64,000 nt of DNA from Serinicoccus profundi (lineage in GTDB: Bacteria; Actinomycetota; Actinomycetes; Actinomycetales; Dermatophilaceae). The translations under genes were made by a program, and so were the position numbers. The DNA is taken from the NCBI RefSeq assembly GCF_008001015.1, contig NZ_CP042862.1, positions 620,001 to 684,000 on the forward strand, given 5' to 3'. The notes under the pieces were generated by a model. It worked only from the letters and a program-made list of their open reading frames with translations. It made no database searches and was not told where the DNA came from. Below, one piece after another: positions 193-53,999 of this stretch; the first letter of the stretch is position 1; every line of letters starts with the position of its first letter.

Positions 193-756
193 ATGGGTGA
201 CTTCGACATCGAGAAGCTGTTGGCCGAGCAGGGTGGGGCGCCCGAGGCGGCCGGGGACCGCGACGGTGCGAGCCGCGAGGGCTCCGCGACCGACGCCGAG
301 GTACCGGGCGGCGACGGCTCCGCGACCGACGCCGAGGTGCCGGGCGGCGAGGGCTCCGCGACCGACGCCGAGGGGCCGGGCGGCGACGGAGCGGTGGACC
401 TGACCTCGGCGTCCGGGGTGCGGATGGCTGACGACGCGGACCTCGACGACCACGCCCGCTACGACCGCGCCACCTTCGCCTTCGAGACCAAGGACTACCT
501 GCGGGCGGCCGCGCTCCTCGGACCGTTGGCCGAGGCCGACCCGGGCAATGCCGAGGTGCGGCTACTGCTGGCCCGCAGCTACTACCACTCCGCGCGGCTG
601 GGCCGGGCCGAGACCGAGCTCCGGGCGCTCCTCGAGCGTTGGCCCAGCGAGGCCTACGCCCACCTCGTCCTGGCCCGCACCCTGCAGCGCGCGGGCCGCG
701 CCGAGGAGGGCGCCCCGCACCTCAAGATCGCCGAGGCGATGGGCCTGGAGGCCTAG
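193..756 (+). CDS. TPR-repeat protein with a low-complexity acidic N-terminus
   Basis: The 187-residue protein starts at ATG 193. Residues about 1-85 are disordered, Gly/Asp/Ala-rich, and include three near-identical 12-residue repeats (GSATDAEVPGGD type). Residues about 90-185 form helical tetratricopeptide repeats: YDRATFAFETKDYLRAAALL, then AEVRLLLARSYYHSARL, then AYAHLVLARTLQRAGR. TPR domains mediate protein-protein contacts, and no catalytic motif is visible. Similar small TPR proteins occur in actinobacteria without an assigned role. The next gene starts one base after the stop, so the two are probably co-transcribed and translationally coupled. Confidence 0.75.
   Translation: MGDFDIEKLLAEQGGAPEAAGDRDGASREGSATDAEVPGGDGSATDAEVPGGEGSATDAEGPGGDGAVDLTSASGVRMADDADLDDHARYDRATFAFETKDYLRAAALLGPLAEADPGNAEVRLLLARSYYHSARLGRAETELRALLERWPSEAYAHLVLARTLQRAGRAEEGAPHLKIAEAMGLEA
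280..387 (+). repeat. Three in-frame 36-bp tandem repeats inside the TPR gene
   Basis: Three consecutive 36-bp units begin at 280, 316 and 352, each starting GGCTCCGCGACCGACGCCGA. They differ at a few positions (GTACCG/GTGCCG/GGGCCG, GGCGAC/GGCGAG) and encode GSATDAE(V/G)PGG(D/E). The unit is a multiple of three, so copy-number change by slippage would lengthen or shorten the linker without a frameshift. Confidence 0.9.
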
Positions 757-757
757 C

Positions 758-1228
758 GTGGACGAGCGGCCCGGCACGCAGGCGCGCACGACCGACCTGC
801 GCCGTGGTCGCATCGCCGGCCGGCTGCTCGTCCTGAGCCCGGGCGTCGTGGGGGCCCTGCACGTGACGCTGCTCCTCGCCGATCCCGGCCAGGGCGCCCC
901 CGCGGACGTCCCCTCCGGGGATCCCCACGGCTATGCGCTCTTCGCCGCCACCTTCCTGGCGTTCGTGGCGCTGCCGGTCCTGCTGGGCCTGGGACTTTGG
1001 GGTGGGCATGGCCTGCGTCGCCAGCGGCGCTCGGGGGTGGTGCTGCTCCTGCTCGCGGCCGCCGCCGGCCTGCTCCAGTGCGCCCTCTTCCTGTGGCTCA
1101 CCCCCGCCTGGGGGCCGTACGCCGTCGTCACGCTGCTCACGGTCCTTGCCGTCCTCTGGGTGCTCGTGGTGCTCGGGTGCGCGCTGCTCGTGGCCCGCAC
1201 ATGGCGGGCGGTGGGCGGCCCTCGCTGA
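758..1228 (+). CDS. Small four-helix membrane protein of unknown function
   Basis: The GTG at 758, one base after the TPR gene's TAG, gives 156 residues. There are four hydrophobic segments: around LLVLSPGVVGALHVTLLLA, ALFAATFLAFVALPVLLGLG, GVVLLLLAAAAGLLQCALFL and YAVVTLLTVLAVLWVLVVLG. The N-terminus and the loop after helix 2 are Arg-rich, which suggests a cytoplasmic location for them. No conserved domain is recognised. The tight spacing to the TPR gene suggests one operon. The stop is followed directly by the repeat array, and no separate terminator is evident. Confidence 0.65.
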   Translation: MDERPGTQARTTDLRRGRIAGRLLVLSPGVVGALHVTLLLADPGQGAPADVPSGDPHGYALFAATFLAFVALPVLLGLGLWGGHGLRRQRRSGVVLLLLAAAAGLLQCALFLWLTPAWGPYAVVTLLTVLAVLWVLVVLGCALLVARTWRAVGGPR

Positions 1229-1288
1229 GGGAGGGCACGGCATACCTCACGTCGCCAGCGACCATCTGCGACGCTCGGCTCTGCGACG

Positions 1289-1815
1289 CTCGGTGAGGAG
1301 GAGCGCGTGCACGGGTCCAATTCGGGTATGCCGCTGCCAGCGGTGAGGATGGGTGCGCGTGTACGGATCCTCTTCGGGTTTGCCGCGTCCAGCGGTGAGG
1401 ATGGGTGCGCGTGTACGGATCCTTCTCGGGTATGCCGCTGCCAGCGGTGAGGGGTCCGCGTGTACGGATCCTCCTCGGGTATGCCGCTGCCAGCGGTGAG
1501 GATCGCTGCGCGTGTACGGATCCTCCCCGCTGACGGCATACCTCCCGTCCCCGGAAGCCGTTGCCCGCGACCATCTGCGACGCTCGGTGAGGATGGGTGC
1601 GTGTGTACGGATCCTCCCCGCTGACGGCATACCCCCGTTCCCGGAAGCCGTCGCCGGCGACCATCTACGACGCTCGGTGAGGATGGGTGCGTGTGTACGG
1701 ATCCTCCCCGGGTAGGCCGCTGCTAGCGGTGAGGATGGGCGCGCGTGTACGGATCCTCCTCGGGTATGCCGCTGCCAGCGGTGAGGATGGGTGCGCCTGC
1801 ACGGATCCTCCCCAC
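1289..1815 (+). repeat. Intergenic array A: nine copies of a 52-bp hairpin-bearing repeat
   Basis: The core reads GGTGAGGATGGGTGCGCGTG then TACGGATCCTC. GAGGAT-type cores begin at about 1295, 1345, 1397, 1449, 1498, 1589, 1679, 1731 and 1783, so most spacings are exactly 52 bp. Each unit carries GAGGAT...ATCCTC as a 6-bp stem, and most also carry CCGCT-GCC-AGCGG as a second small stem that overlaps GGTATGCC. Around 1530-1710 the spacing rises to 90 bp because of an inserted module (GACGGCATACC ... GCGACCATCTGCGACGCTCGG). The array fills the gap between two convergent genes. It is stop-free in several frames but the period is not a multiple of 3, so it is not coding. Confidence 0.9.
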
Positions 1816-1824
1816 CGGCGAGGC

Positions 1825-3435
1825 TCAGGTCCAGAAGTCGAACCACATCCGCAGGTTCCAGGCCTCGCGCGGGATGGTGATGGCGGTGTGGACCGGCCAG
1901 TACCACGCGAAGGCGGCGATGGCGAGGGTGAGGTAGCCGATGACGACGACCGCGCCCCAGCGGCGCCGCTCCGGGCTCGCGTCGGCGCGGCCGAGCACGA
2001 GCGCCAGGCAGGTGACGACGACCAGGACGAGCCACGGCACGAAGGCGACGGCGTAGAAGCTGTAGATCGTGCGGGTCTGGTAGAGGAACCACGGCAGCCA
2101 GCCCGCGGCGATCCCCGCGAGCGCCGCCCCCGCGCGCCAGTCGCGGCCCAGCAGCCAGAGGAAGAGCACGACGAGCAGCCCGATCGTGGCGCCCCACCAG
2201 AGGACGATGTTGCCGAGGGAGGCGATGTACTCGACGCACTCGGCGACCTCGCAGCCCTTCTCGCCCTCCTTGGGCCACTCGGCGTAGAACAGCGTGGGTC
2301 GCCACTGCACGGTCCAGCTCCACGGGTTGGAGCTCCACGCGTGCTCGTTGGCGAGGTCGATGTGGAAGTTCCACTGCTCCACGTGGTAGGCCCACAGGGA
2401 GCGCAGCGGGTCGGGGACCAGCGCGGCCAGGCTCCCGGACGTCGCCGGGTTGTCGGCACCCCACTGCCGCTTCCACCCACCCTCGGTGGCGAACCACCCG
2501 GCCCAGCTGGCGACATACGTCATCAGAGCGGTCGGCACCATGAGCAGGAACGCGGGTATGCCGTCGCGCACCACGGTCCCGGCGAGCCAGTCGCGCGCCC
2601 CGACGGCGCGGCGGGCCCCGAGGTCCCAGGCGACGGTCATGAGGCCGAAGACGGCCAGGAAGTAGAGCCCCGACCACTTGGTGCCGATCGCCAGGCCCAG
2701 GCAGACACCCGCCGCCAGCCGCCACCACCGGATCCCCAGCGAGGGGCCCCACCAGCGGCGGGCGCGGGCCCACGCCGAGCGCGGCGCCCCTGTGCCCGAG
2801 CCGTGCGTGGCCTCCCACCACGGCCCCCACCGGTCCGCGAGCCGGCGTCGCCCCTGCTCCCGGTCCAGCAGCAGGGCGAGGAAGGCCAGCAGCACCCACC
2901 ACATGAGGAAGAGGTCGAGCAGACCGATCCGGGAGGAGGCGAAGTGGTGACCGTCCACCGCCAGCAGCGTCGAGGCGCTGATCGCCAGCAGCGCGTTCTT
3001 CCACAGCAGCCAGGCGACGACGCCGAGGACGGCGATCGACAGGGTGCCGATCGTGGCGGCGGACAACCGCCAGCCGAAGGGCGACTCCGGCCCGGTGACG
3101 AGCTCGCCGAGGCCGATCATCCACTTGCCCACCGGCGGGTGGACGACGAGGTCGGGCTGGTTGCCGAAGACGTCGGGGTTGCCGGCCGTCCACAGCTCGT
3201 CGGGCTCCTCCAGGCCGGCCTTGATCTCGCGCTCGTGGCCGAAGCGCACGAGGGACCAGGCCTGCTTGACGTAGTAGGTCTCGTCGAAGACGAGCCGGTC
3301 GGGGTAGCCCAGCCGCCAGAAGCGCAGGGCACCACCGATGAGGGTCACCAGGGCGATGCCGAGGGCGGCCACGCGACGCTGCCGGGCGAGTGCTGCGGGC
3401 GCCGGGCCGAGCAGGCGCTCCCGCAGTGACGTCAT
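1825..3435 (-). CDS. pmt: Dolichyl-phosphate-mannose (polyprenyl-P-Man) protein O-mannosyltransferase, GT39
   Basis: This 536-residue polytopic membrane protein is a GT-C glycosyltransferase that should transfer mannose from polyprenyl-phosphate-mannose to Ser/Thr of secreted proteins. The Asp-Glu pair essential in PMTs is in VFDETYYVKQAW at residues 51-52. A second loop has HPPVGKW, and the GHHFASSRIGLLDLFLMWW segment is also family-typical. About ten further transmembrane helices follow. The start ATG 3435 is chosen because a TACGAT -10 box lies 7 nt upstream, which implies a leaderless transcript. In-frame starts at 3444 and 3468 are alternatives but lack a ribosome site. The gene is divergent from sdhC and its 3' end abuts repeat array A. 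Confidence 0.88.
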   Translation of the reverse strand: MTSLRERLLGPAPAALARQRRVAALGIALVTLIGGALRFWRLGYPDRLVFDETYYVKQAWSLVRFGHEREIKAGLEEPDELWTAGNPDVFGNQPDLVVHPPVGKWMIGLGELVTGPESPFGWRLSAATIGTLSIAVLGVVAWLLWKNALLAISASTLLAVDGHHFASSRIGLLDLFLMWWVLLAFLALLLDREQGRRRLADRWGPWWEATHGSGTGAPRSAWARARRWWGPSLGIRWWRLAAGVCLGLAIGTKWSGLYFLAVFGLMTVAWDLGARRAVGARDWLAGTVVRDGIPAFLLMVPTALMTYVASWAGWFATEGGWKRQWGADNPATSGSLAALVPDPLRSLWAYHVEQWNFHIDLANEHAWSSNPWSWTVQWRPTLFYAEWPKEGEKGCEVAECVEYIASLGNIVLWWGATIGLLVVLFLWLLGRDWRAGAALAGIAAGWLPWFLYQTRTIYSFYAVAFVPWLVLVVVTCLALVLGRADASPERRRWGAVVVIGYLTLAIAAFAWYWPVHTAITIPREAWNLRMWFDFWT

Positions 3436-3442
3436 ACCCGTC

Positions 3443-3448
3443 ATCGTA
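3443..3448 (-). promoter_or_regulatory. -10 box of pmt, leaderless type
   Basis: On the minus strand TACGAT is followed by seven bases (GACGGGT) and then ATG at 3435. No purine-rich ribosome site lies upstream of that ATG. The spacing puts the transcription start at or next to the A of ATG. Confidence 0.5.
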
Positions 3449-3542
3449 GGCGCTGAGCTGCACGTCACCAGCGGCTCGGCGCCGGCGCCGGAGGACGGTG
3501 CGACGGTGGGAGGGTCGCGCTGAGGCTGCGCGGGGCGGGCGG

Positions 3543-12489: not shown

Positions 12490-12613
12490 GAGCGACCATC
12501 TGCGGCGCTCGGTGGGGTCGTGGGCGACCATCTGTGACGCTCGGTGGGGGCAGGGGCGACCATCTGCGGCGCTCGGTGGGGTCGGGGGCGACCATCTGCG
12601 GCGCTCGGTGGGG
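12490..12613 (+). repeat. Array C: four copies of a GCGACCATCTGCGGCGCTCGG module upstream of metG
   Basis: Near-identical copies of about 26 bp begin at 12492, 12534, 12556 and 12588, each GCGACCATCTG(C/T)G(G/A)CGCTC then GGTGGGG. The spacing is irregular. The same module occurs inside array A (about 1257, 1568 and 1658), where it continues into the GAGGATGGG repeat core. A GGCATACC word sits just before the first copy. Confidence 0.85.
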
Positions 12614-53459: not shown

Positions 53460-53999
53460 GGGCGAGGGCCGTTGGGCGGGGAGGATCGGTGCACGCGCCC
53501 CCATCCTCACCGGGTCAGGGTCGTTGGGTGGGGAGGATTGGTGCACGCGCCCCCATCCTCACCGGGTCAGGGTCGTTGCGCGGGGAGGATCGGTGCACGC
53601 GCCCCCATCCTCACCGGGCCAGGGCCGTTGCGCGGGGAGGATCGGTGCACACGGCCCCATCCTCACCGGGCCAGGGCCGTTGGGCGGGGAGGATCAGTGC
53701 ACGCGCCCCCATCCTCCTCAGCGGCGTCAGGCTGCGCGGCTCAGTGCACGCCGCTGACACTCAGCGAGTGCACCGGTTGTGCCGCCAGATCAACCCATGA
53801 CGCGACATACCCCCTGCAGTCGCGCACCCGTGCGGAGATCAGACCGGTGCCCTTCGCGAAGCTGACGATGGCTCGCCAGAGTCCCTGAGCTCTGGGCGGG
53901 GAGGATCGGTGCACGCGCAGCCATGCTCGCCGGGCCAGGGCCGTTGGGCGCGGAGGATCGGTGCACGCGCCCCCATCGTCACCGAGCCAGGGCCGGACA
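53460..53999 (-). repeat. Intergenic array B: seven copies of the 52-bp repeat, opposite orientation to array A
   Basis: GAGGAT cores begin at 53481, 53533, 53585, 53637, 53689, 53901 and 53953; all adjacent spacings are exactly 52 bp. A typical unit reads GAGGATCGGTGCACGCGCCC then CCATCCTCACCGGG and CAGGGCCGTTG. Read on the minus strand this is GGTGAGGATGGGGGCGCGTG followed by CACCGATCCTC, the same core as array A. Each unit keeps the GAGGAT...ATCCTC stem. A 160-bp non-repeat insert (about 53735-53895) splits the array. No gene is visible here. Confidence 0.9.

Follow-up and report, generated by a model that had tools for sequence, protein, structure and literature searches.

The repeat array near the start of the window (the whole stretch of 64,000 nucleotides that was analysed, bases 620001-684000 of the source genome G000, a single contig of 3.476 Mb) belongs to a clade-restricted family, which we call F1, whose 20 arrays in this genome are dispersed and lie mostly between genes. 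What its members share, judged from array-weighted columns of 38 arrays, is a 36-bp dyad, CGGKGAGGATCSGTGCRSSYGCACSGATCCTCMCCG, which is polar and precedes about 16 bp of little information. The dyad is conserved without covariation of its arms, the spacing is nearly fixed while the linkers differ, and the arrays favour gene 3' ends. We give about even weight to the explanation that the dyad is read by a dimeric protein on helically phased sites, and that the family spreads at 3' ends in a BIME-like manner.

An array between convergent genes and its family

The array in question, array A, consists of eight clear F1 units and a degenerate one, in the gap between two convergent genes; genes were called with our own codon-score caller, and the calls on both sides agree with the arrangement proposed earlier from the sequence alone. 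The contig starts at dnaA (gene named by eye). The features of the window are listed below, the strand of an F1 unit being that of its strong half-site.

757..1228, plus strand: left neighbour gene; no Pfam family at E 0.001, product hydrophobic by eye
1259..1278, plus strand: F2 module adjoining array A (= G000:C1:621259-621278)
1294..1321, no strand: degenerate first F1 unit, by eye; within the Tandem Repeats Finder array, below the detection threshold
1345..1372, minus strand: F1 unit (28-bp core), pattern scan
1397..1424, minus strand: F1 unit, pattern scan
1446..1473, minus strand: F1 unit, 5' arm damaged, 3 bp short, unit scan
1498..1525, minus strand: F1 unit, pattern scan
1568..1587, plus strand: F2 module within array A, abutting an F1 unit, F2 search
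1589..1616, minus strand: F1 unit, 91 bp beyond the preceding unit, pattern scan
1658..1677, plus strand: F2 module within array A, abutting an F1 unit, F2 search
1679..1706, minus strand: F1 unit, 90 bp beyond the preceding unit, pattern scan
1731..1758, minus strand: F1 unit, pattern scan
1783..1810, minus strand: F1 unit, the last of array A, pattern scan
1825..3468, minus strand: right neighbour gene, protein O-mannosyltransferase (PMT, PMT_4TMC)
53481..53716, plus strand: second F1 array of the window, 5 units at 52 bp, Tandem Repeats Finder and unit scan
53901..53980, plus strand: 2 more F1 units, in the intergenic region shared with the second array, unit scan

With a detection threshold of 13 of 16 scored positions, the nine copies at a period of about 52 bp seen by the sequence-only reading correspond to eight units above threshold, whose GAGGAT motifs start at window 1345, 1397, 1446, 1498, 1589, 1679, 1731 and 1783, and a degenerate ninth at about 1294. 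Tandem Repeats Finder reported the period of 52 at window 1291-1526 and 1675-1813. The unit pattern matched 28 times in the window (both strands, both window arrays) against 0.07 expected, a count reached in none of 100 shuffles. Two intervals of array A measure 91 and 90 bp instead of 52, and each holds one ACCATCTGC module (1568-1587 and 1658-1677). These modules are members of a second dispersed family, F2, and the modular make-up suspected earlier was thus borne out; the CCGCT-GCC-AGCGG joint, by comparison, turned out to be the linker of array A alone and not a feature of the F1 family. In the same part of the window, a gene at 193-756 carries an in-frame 36-bp repeat of about three copies (275-389).

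When the unit was searched in the host and its relatives, it proved to belong to a family found at one mismatch or less in four of 31 genomes of the genus, taken to be Serinicoccus: G000 (74 units in 20 arrays), G007 (39 units in 16 arrays), G021 (one array of 3 units) and G026 (1 unit). The other 27 genomes gave no match at this stringency, and a reversed-pattern control gave none among all 31. More degenerate copies stand outside all counts; examples are a lone half-unit at G000:C1:3068221, an incomplete third unit in L047 and the first unit of array A, at window 1294. In G000, the stretches analysed take in 72 of the 72 reverse-strand matches that the unit pattern has in the whole genome and 73 of its 74 forward ones, as well as 67 of 67 matches per strand for the pattern used across the 31 genomes; every G007 match of the F1 patterns is covered too. 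At those thresholds the G000 unit list is therefore nearly complete. A single weak hit at the unit threshold in G029 (L121:3552), a genome otherwise without matches at one mismatch or less, we take as chance.

Beyond the genus, an exact pattern scan of one genome per species (84,980 species, a set that may omit the window's own or very near genomes) returned 10 stretches. Only one of them looks related, NZ_VSLG01000021.1 of Serinicoccus kebangsaanensis, with one such palindrome; the remaining nine, each a lone site in a distant taxon, were judged to be chance. Array A had no match in 72,556 plasmid records and 50,697 phage records, and a plasmid or phage origin was set aside; a loose pattern matched once in one viral contig. 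Among the matches listed, searches of sequences and of the literature by sequence, genus or topic returned no description of the repeat, in agreement with the earlier remark that no named repeat fits. The four carriers form a group in a tree built from three genes, where the node including G000 has a weak support of 0.50 and G007 and G021 are sisters (support 1.00).

Anatomy of the unit and its spacing

The two halves of the dyad are unequally kept. Among 38 array-weighted units, 17.0 combine a strong with a weak half-site, 12.8 a strong with an intermediate one and 6.8 have two strong halves; 1.4 have no strong half, and the weak-weak class is empty. Polarity is the same throughout the array in 19 of the 20 G000 arrays (2 of these 19 being single units and 2 holding a unit without clear polarity), and units of both polarities occur in the remaining one.

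The near-constant spacing of about five helical turns noted in array A is a property of the whole family: the 79 intervals measure exactly 52 bp in 61 cases, 53 in 8, 51 in 2 and other lengths in 8, and a 52-bp interval is present in 31 of the 34 multi-unit arrays. The exceptional spacings (61, 88, 90, 91, 96, 147 and 212 bp) are mostly not whole turns. This regularity is kept in spite of the linkers. Between arrays, the 14 central linker bases are 0.43 identical, compared with 0.37 for random 14-mers from flanks and 0.82 for the unit cores; the excess over random may come partly from a GGTATGC motif present in many F1 linkers. Within arrays the units are 0.91 and the linkers 0.79 identical (mean centre identity, 57 pairs). 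The 61 linkers fall into 35 families, three of which span at least two arrays. A flank matching the linker (at least 0.7) was found in 5 of the 34 multi-unit arrays, and duplication of a unit together with local flank, which may hold for some arrays, was not retained as the source of linkers. Near-fixed spacing despite differing linkers and the conserved dyad are features that suggest selection as a protein-binding element, as had been proposed.

The second family, F2 (CGACCATCTGCGRCGCTCGG), has 234 matches at one mismatch or less in G000 and 2 in G028; none was found in G007, G021, G026 or G011 (six genomes searched, G000 and G028 included). Its period is about three helical turns, with 84 of 85 intervals in 25 stretches at exactly 32 bp and one at 33; a further stretch has one 27-bp interval, and the two G028 copies lie 33 apart. 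F2 also occurs in the window at 12492-12613, and in some gaps as opposed pairs of arrays. Its linkers are G-rich and, at 0.54 identity between arrays, more alike than those of F1, so that an inherited length is a stronger rival explanation for F2.

Other repeats were noted along the way. Short tandem families have periods of 22 bp at L061:4601-4703 (G007) and 19 bp at L045:2861-2914 (G000). The octamer GGTATGCC occurs 47 times in the window (e.g. at 1239, 1325, 2555 and 12482) against 0.7 to 1.4 expected, and 1695 times in G000 against 24 for its reversed control. It exceeds the reversed control at least five-fold in 31 of 31 genus genomes and, more weakly, at least four-fold in three of five other family members. 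It is also intragenic, for instance in the mannosyltransferase gene, there with an ATA codon; a genome-wide signal, Chi-like or connected with methylation for example, is one possibility.

Position at gene 3' ends and turnover between species

Mapping of the arrays relative to gene 3' ends, as had been advised, showed a bias towards them. Counted over 38 arrays, which include six orthologous pairs and are therefore not fully independent, 17 lie in convergent, 19 in co-directional and 2 in divergent gaps. The corresponding numbers are 12, 52 and 28 for the 92 control gaps of at least 60 bp, and 23, 131 and 33 for all 187 control gaps. Convergent gaps are thus enriched (17/38 vs 12/92, Fisher p 1.7e-4; p 1.5e-5 against all 187 gaps), and divergent gaps are depleted (2/38 vs 28/92, p 1.3e-3), an effect that is weak against all 187 gaps (p 0.08). 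Exceptions to the intergenic location are L049, inside a called gene, and L074, which overlaps one by 2 nt. No significant orientation relative to replication emerged: taking the terminus as opposite the dnaA end, the strong half points against the fork in 14 of 20 G000 arrays (p 0.12, not significant), and replication polarity was rejected as an explanation. No function common to the flanking genes was seen among 40 proteins scanned, i.e. the 38 beside the 20 G000 arrays (without the left gene at L049) and the 2 beside the G026 unit.

At the site of array A, downstream of the mannosyltransferase gene, no F1 unit was found in 29 of 29 congener loci, G007 included, the gap being delimited in 21 of them. 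In one of these congeners, G015 (L091), a different scattered motif, GTTGCCAGGG, is repeated several times at this place.

G000 and G007 share six pairs of orthologous arrays in five regions, and unit number differs between the partners. In two of these regions, among the eight nearest congeners examined, units were found in G007 only, although these are not all clean empty sites because the downstream gene differs in several of those congeners. In a third, between tsnR and pheS, neither G011 nor G021 has F1 arrays. Altogether G021 is without arrays at the three shared regions examined; as it is the sister of G007, arrays have been lost or have moved, which argues against an important role in the host. 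After the transporter gene (L112), where G000 and G007 have F1 arrays, G021 has another insert, with a PIN-domain-like frame by eye. Arrays thus come and go between species and, being absent at orthologous sites in relatives, no examined array is indispensable across species.

Linker length hardly differs within the orthologous pairs. In five of them the linkers of G000 and of G007 both measure 24 nt, and in the sixth 24 vs 25, while the best linker-centre identities in those five are 0.21, 0.50, 0.86, 0.29 and 0.36; a long linker (119 and 60 nt) is present as well in one array each.

Competing explanations and known systems

According to the explanation that we favour, the 36-bp dyad would be the functional part, read as double-stranded DNA by a putative dimeric protein; one half-site at least is nearly always near consensus, and its partner is often relaxed. 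A distance of about five helical turns from dyad to dyad would place several dimers on one face of the helix, where they may cooperate, and the roughly 16 bp between dyads would serve mainly as a ruler. The family would expand and contract in the manner of BIME repeats, with arrays gained, lost or altered in their number of units, chiefly at gene 3' ends, where an insertion does little harm. Some benefit to the host is conceivable, e.g. the blocking of read-through between convergent genes.

An RNA or cruciform hairpin would make the units transcribed stem-loops, acting as terminators or as stabilisers of mRNA 3' ends between convergent genes. The position of the arrays at 3' ends, often convergent, agrees with it, and the units are able to fold, the most stable of those computed reaching -39.9 kcal/mol (z -9.1). 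That much of the hairpin suggested by the sequence-only reading stands; a stem of constant strength does not, since energies spread from -8.2 to -39.9 kcal/mol over five strands of four units. The arms, moreover, do not covary: when each array was represented by a single unit, oriented by polarity, the pairing at 15 pairs of variable positions was 0.654, against 0.658 in shuffles (reached by 699 of 1000), and the hairpin itself is thus probably not what is selected. In window 1000-2100, Rfam gave nothing over its gathering score (best 20.1 bits, 45 needed), and no GC stem followed by a T-tract was present on either strand of window 700-2400, the region of array A. Actinobacterial terminators may lack a T-tract. 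A terminator has no need of fixed spacing. We find a selected hairpin quite improbable; a dimeric protein on helically phased sites, with the palindrome serving as its duplex dyad, fits better. The other main rival is an ordinary dispersed minisatellite, whose 52-bp units would be copied through slippage and recombination, would lack a selected function and would simply inherit their length. It draws on the likeness of units and linkers within arrays, on the variable unit number of orthologous arrays and on their dispensability, and the relatedness of within-array linkers (0.79) and the one clearly homologous orthologous linker (0.86) do count against our explanation, as they would fit lengths inherited from common arrays. 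However, between arrays the letters of the linkers are almost fully different and their length is not; four of five orthologous pairs have equal linker length at a centre identity of 0.50 or less, and, for comparison, the spacer that separates the mannosyltransferase gene from its next neighbour ranges from 27 to 116 nt across six congeners (G011 27, G026 27, G017 39, G028 54, G029 55, G021 116). Slippage alone would also leave aside the cores kept at 0.82 identity between arrays, the 3'-end bias and the like behaviour of the unrelated F2 at 32 bp. It had been stated at the outset that a unit confined to this strain, decaying neutrally and without positional bias, would be a plain minisatellite; three other species carry the unit and the bias is present. 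We regard this rival as unlikely.

A narrower possibility concerns the mobiliser. Between pheS and tsnR, G000 and G007 show the order array-gene-array, the gene (L050:3386-4300, about 1914.1-1915.0 kb of G000:C1) encoding a 305-residue, REase-like protein, and in G011 and G021 tsnR and pheS adjoin with neither gene nor arrays between them. This protein may propagate F1 as RAYTs do REPs. It matches PF18741 weakly (E 7e-5, under the family cut-off) and AbiEi more weakly (E 0.0007 and 0.0027). The frame is open in both species with a dN/dS of 0.28, dN and dS both being above those of pheS and tsnR, and the sequence comparison indicates that the gene is under purifying selection between G000 and G007. 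No homologue at E 1e-3 was found elsewhere in the 1.10 Mb examined (overlapping stretches included). On the other side, its two arrays are opposite in polarity in G000 but not in G007, no such gene occurs in three gene-called stretches around F2 arrays (names by eye), and the array-rich genomes are only two, a small sample. A PDB sequence search gave three hits, all at E 0.04 or worse, and a structure prediction (mean pLDDT 43.5) was too poor for use and was discarded. Such a role is very doubtful in our estimation, but the gene is a directly testable candidate partner of the F1 arrays. More broadly, and tentatively, since we think it rather unlikely, F1 and F2 might represent RAYT-free, helically phased palindromic arrays of high-GC actinobacteria, in which a dimeric protein, possibly the array-flanked REase-like one, would measure whole turns (five for F1, three for F2) as units are copied or maintained; spacing would then be inherited independently of the intervening DNA.

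Several known systems share part of this design. In the mycobacteria, actinobacteria too, the MIRU-VNTR resemble F1 in forming tandem arrays of about 50-100 bp that are dispersed in intergenic DNA, but they are not known to combine a palindromic core and free linkers with a strict period. In sopC of the F plasmid, direct repeats follow one another at constant period, and each contains an inverted repeat to which a dimer binds; this centromere type is close to F1 in layout, but occupies one plasmid locus as against twenty chromosomal loci. CRISPR has in common with F1 a palindromic repeat of about 28 bp and a constant spacer length, and is set apart by its linkers, those of F1 being not unique but alike within arrays. 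Ends of an insertion sequence or a MITE were also considered and rejected: of 56 exact half-site matches in G000, 55 lie inside listed units, a count that diverged ends would escape.

The nearest known kind is that of the REP/BIME repeats, which are usually tied to RAYT transposases and hairpins. Like F1, they are imperfect palindromes of 20-40 bp, extragenic, dispersed, arrayed and variable among relatives. RAYT, a Y1 transposase, belongs to REPs, whereas a search for Y1_Tnp (PF01797) gave 0 matches in the four F1 carriers (G000, G007, G021 and G026) while being positive in 5 of 14 control genomes; a Y1 transposase was thus rejected as the mobiliser of F1. BIME units alternate, whereas those of F1 point one way in 19 of the 20 G000 arrays. 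The passages of PMC2817692 on E. coli place BIME-2 on both sides of rayt, and F1 is similar in that one gene, here the REase-like one, has arrays on both sides. In the Stenotrophomonas BIMEs treated by the same source, the length between REPs varies substantially and the palindromes show complementary changes, unlike F1 with its nearly fixed length and arms without covariation. The end tag of a REP is GTAG or CGTC in the description of PMC3733652, and the ends of F1, in a profile with 14 bp per side, show CGGK and MCCG instead. As RAYT, alternation, complementary changes and the end tag were each looked for and are lacking in F1, we do not class it as REP/BIME. Most likely it nevertheless works like them, as a protein-bound dispersed palindrome spreading through 3' intergenic DNA. 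F1 is thus a BIME-like family with neither RAYT nor hairpin in evidence, whose period is kept while its linkers differ. The unrelated F2, which shares the genome with it, behaves in much this way with a different period, likewise close to a whole number of turns. Together, the two families offer a tractable case for how bacterial repeat arrays gain and hold exact spacing.
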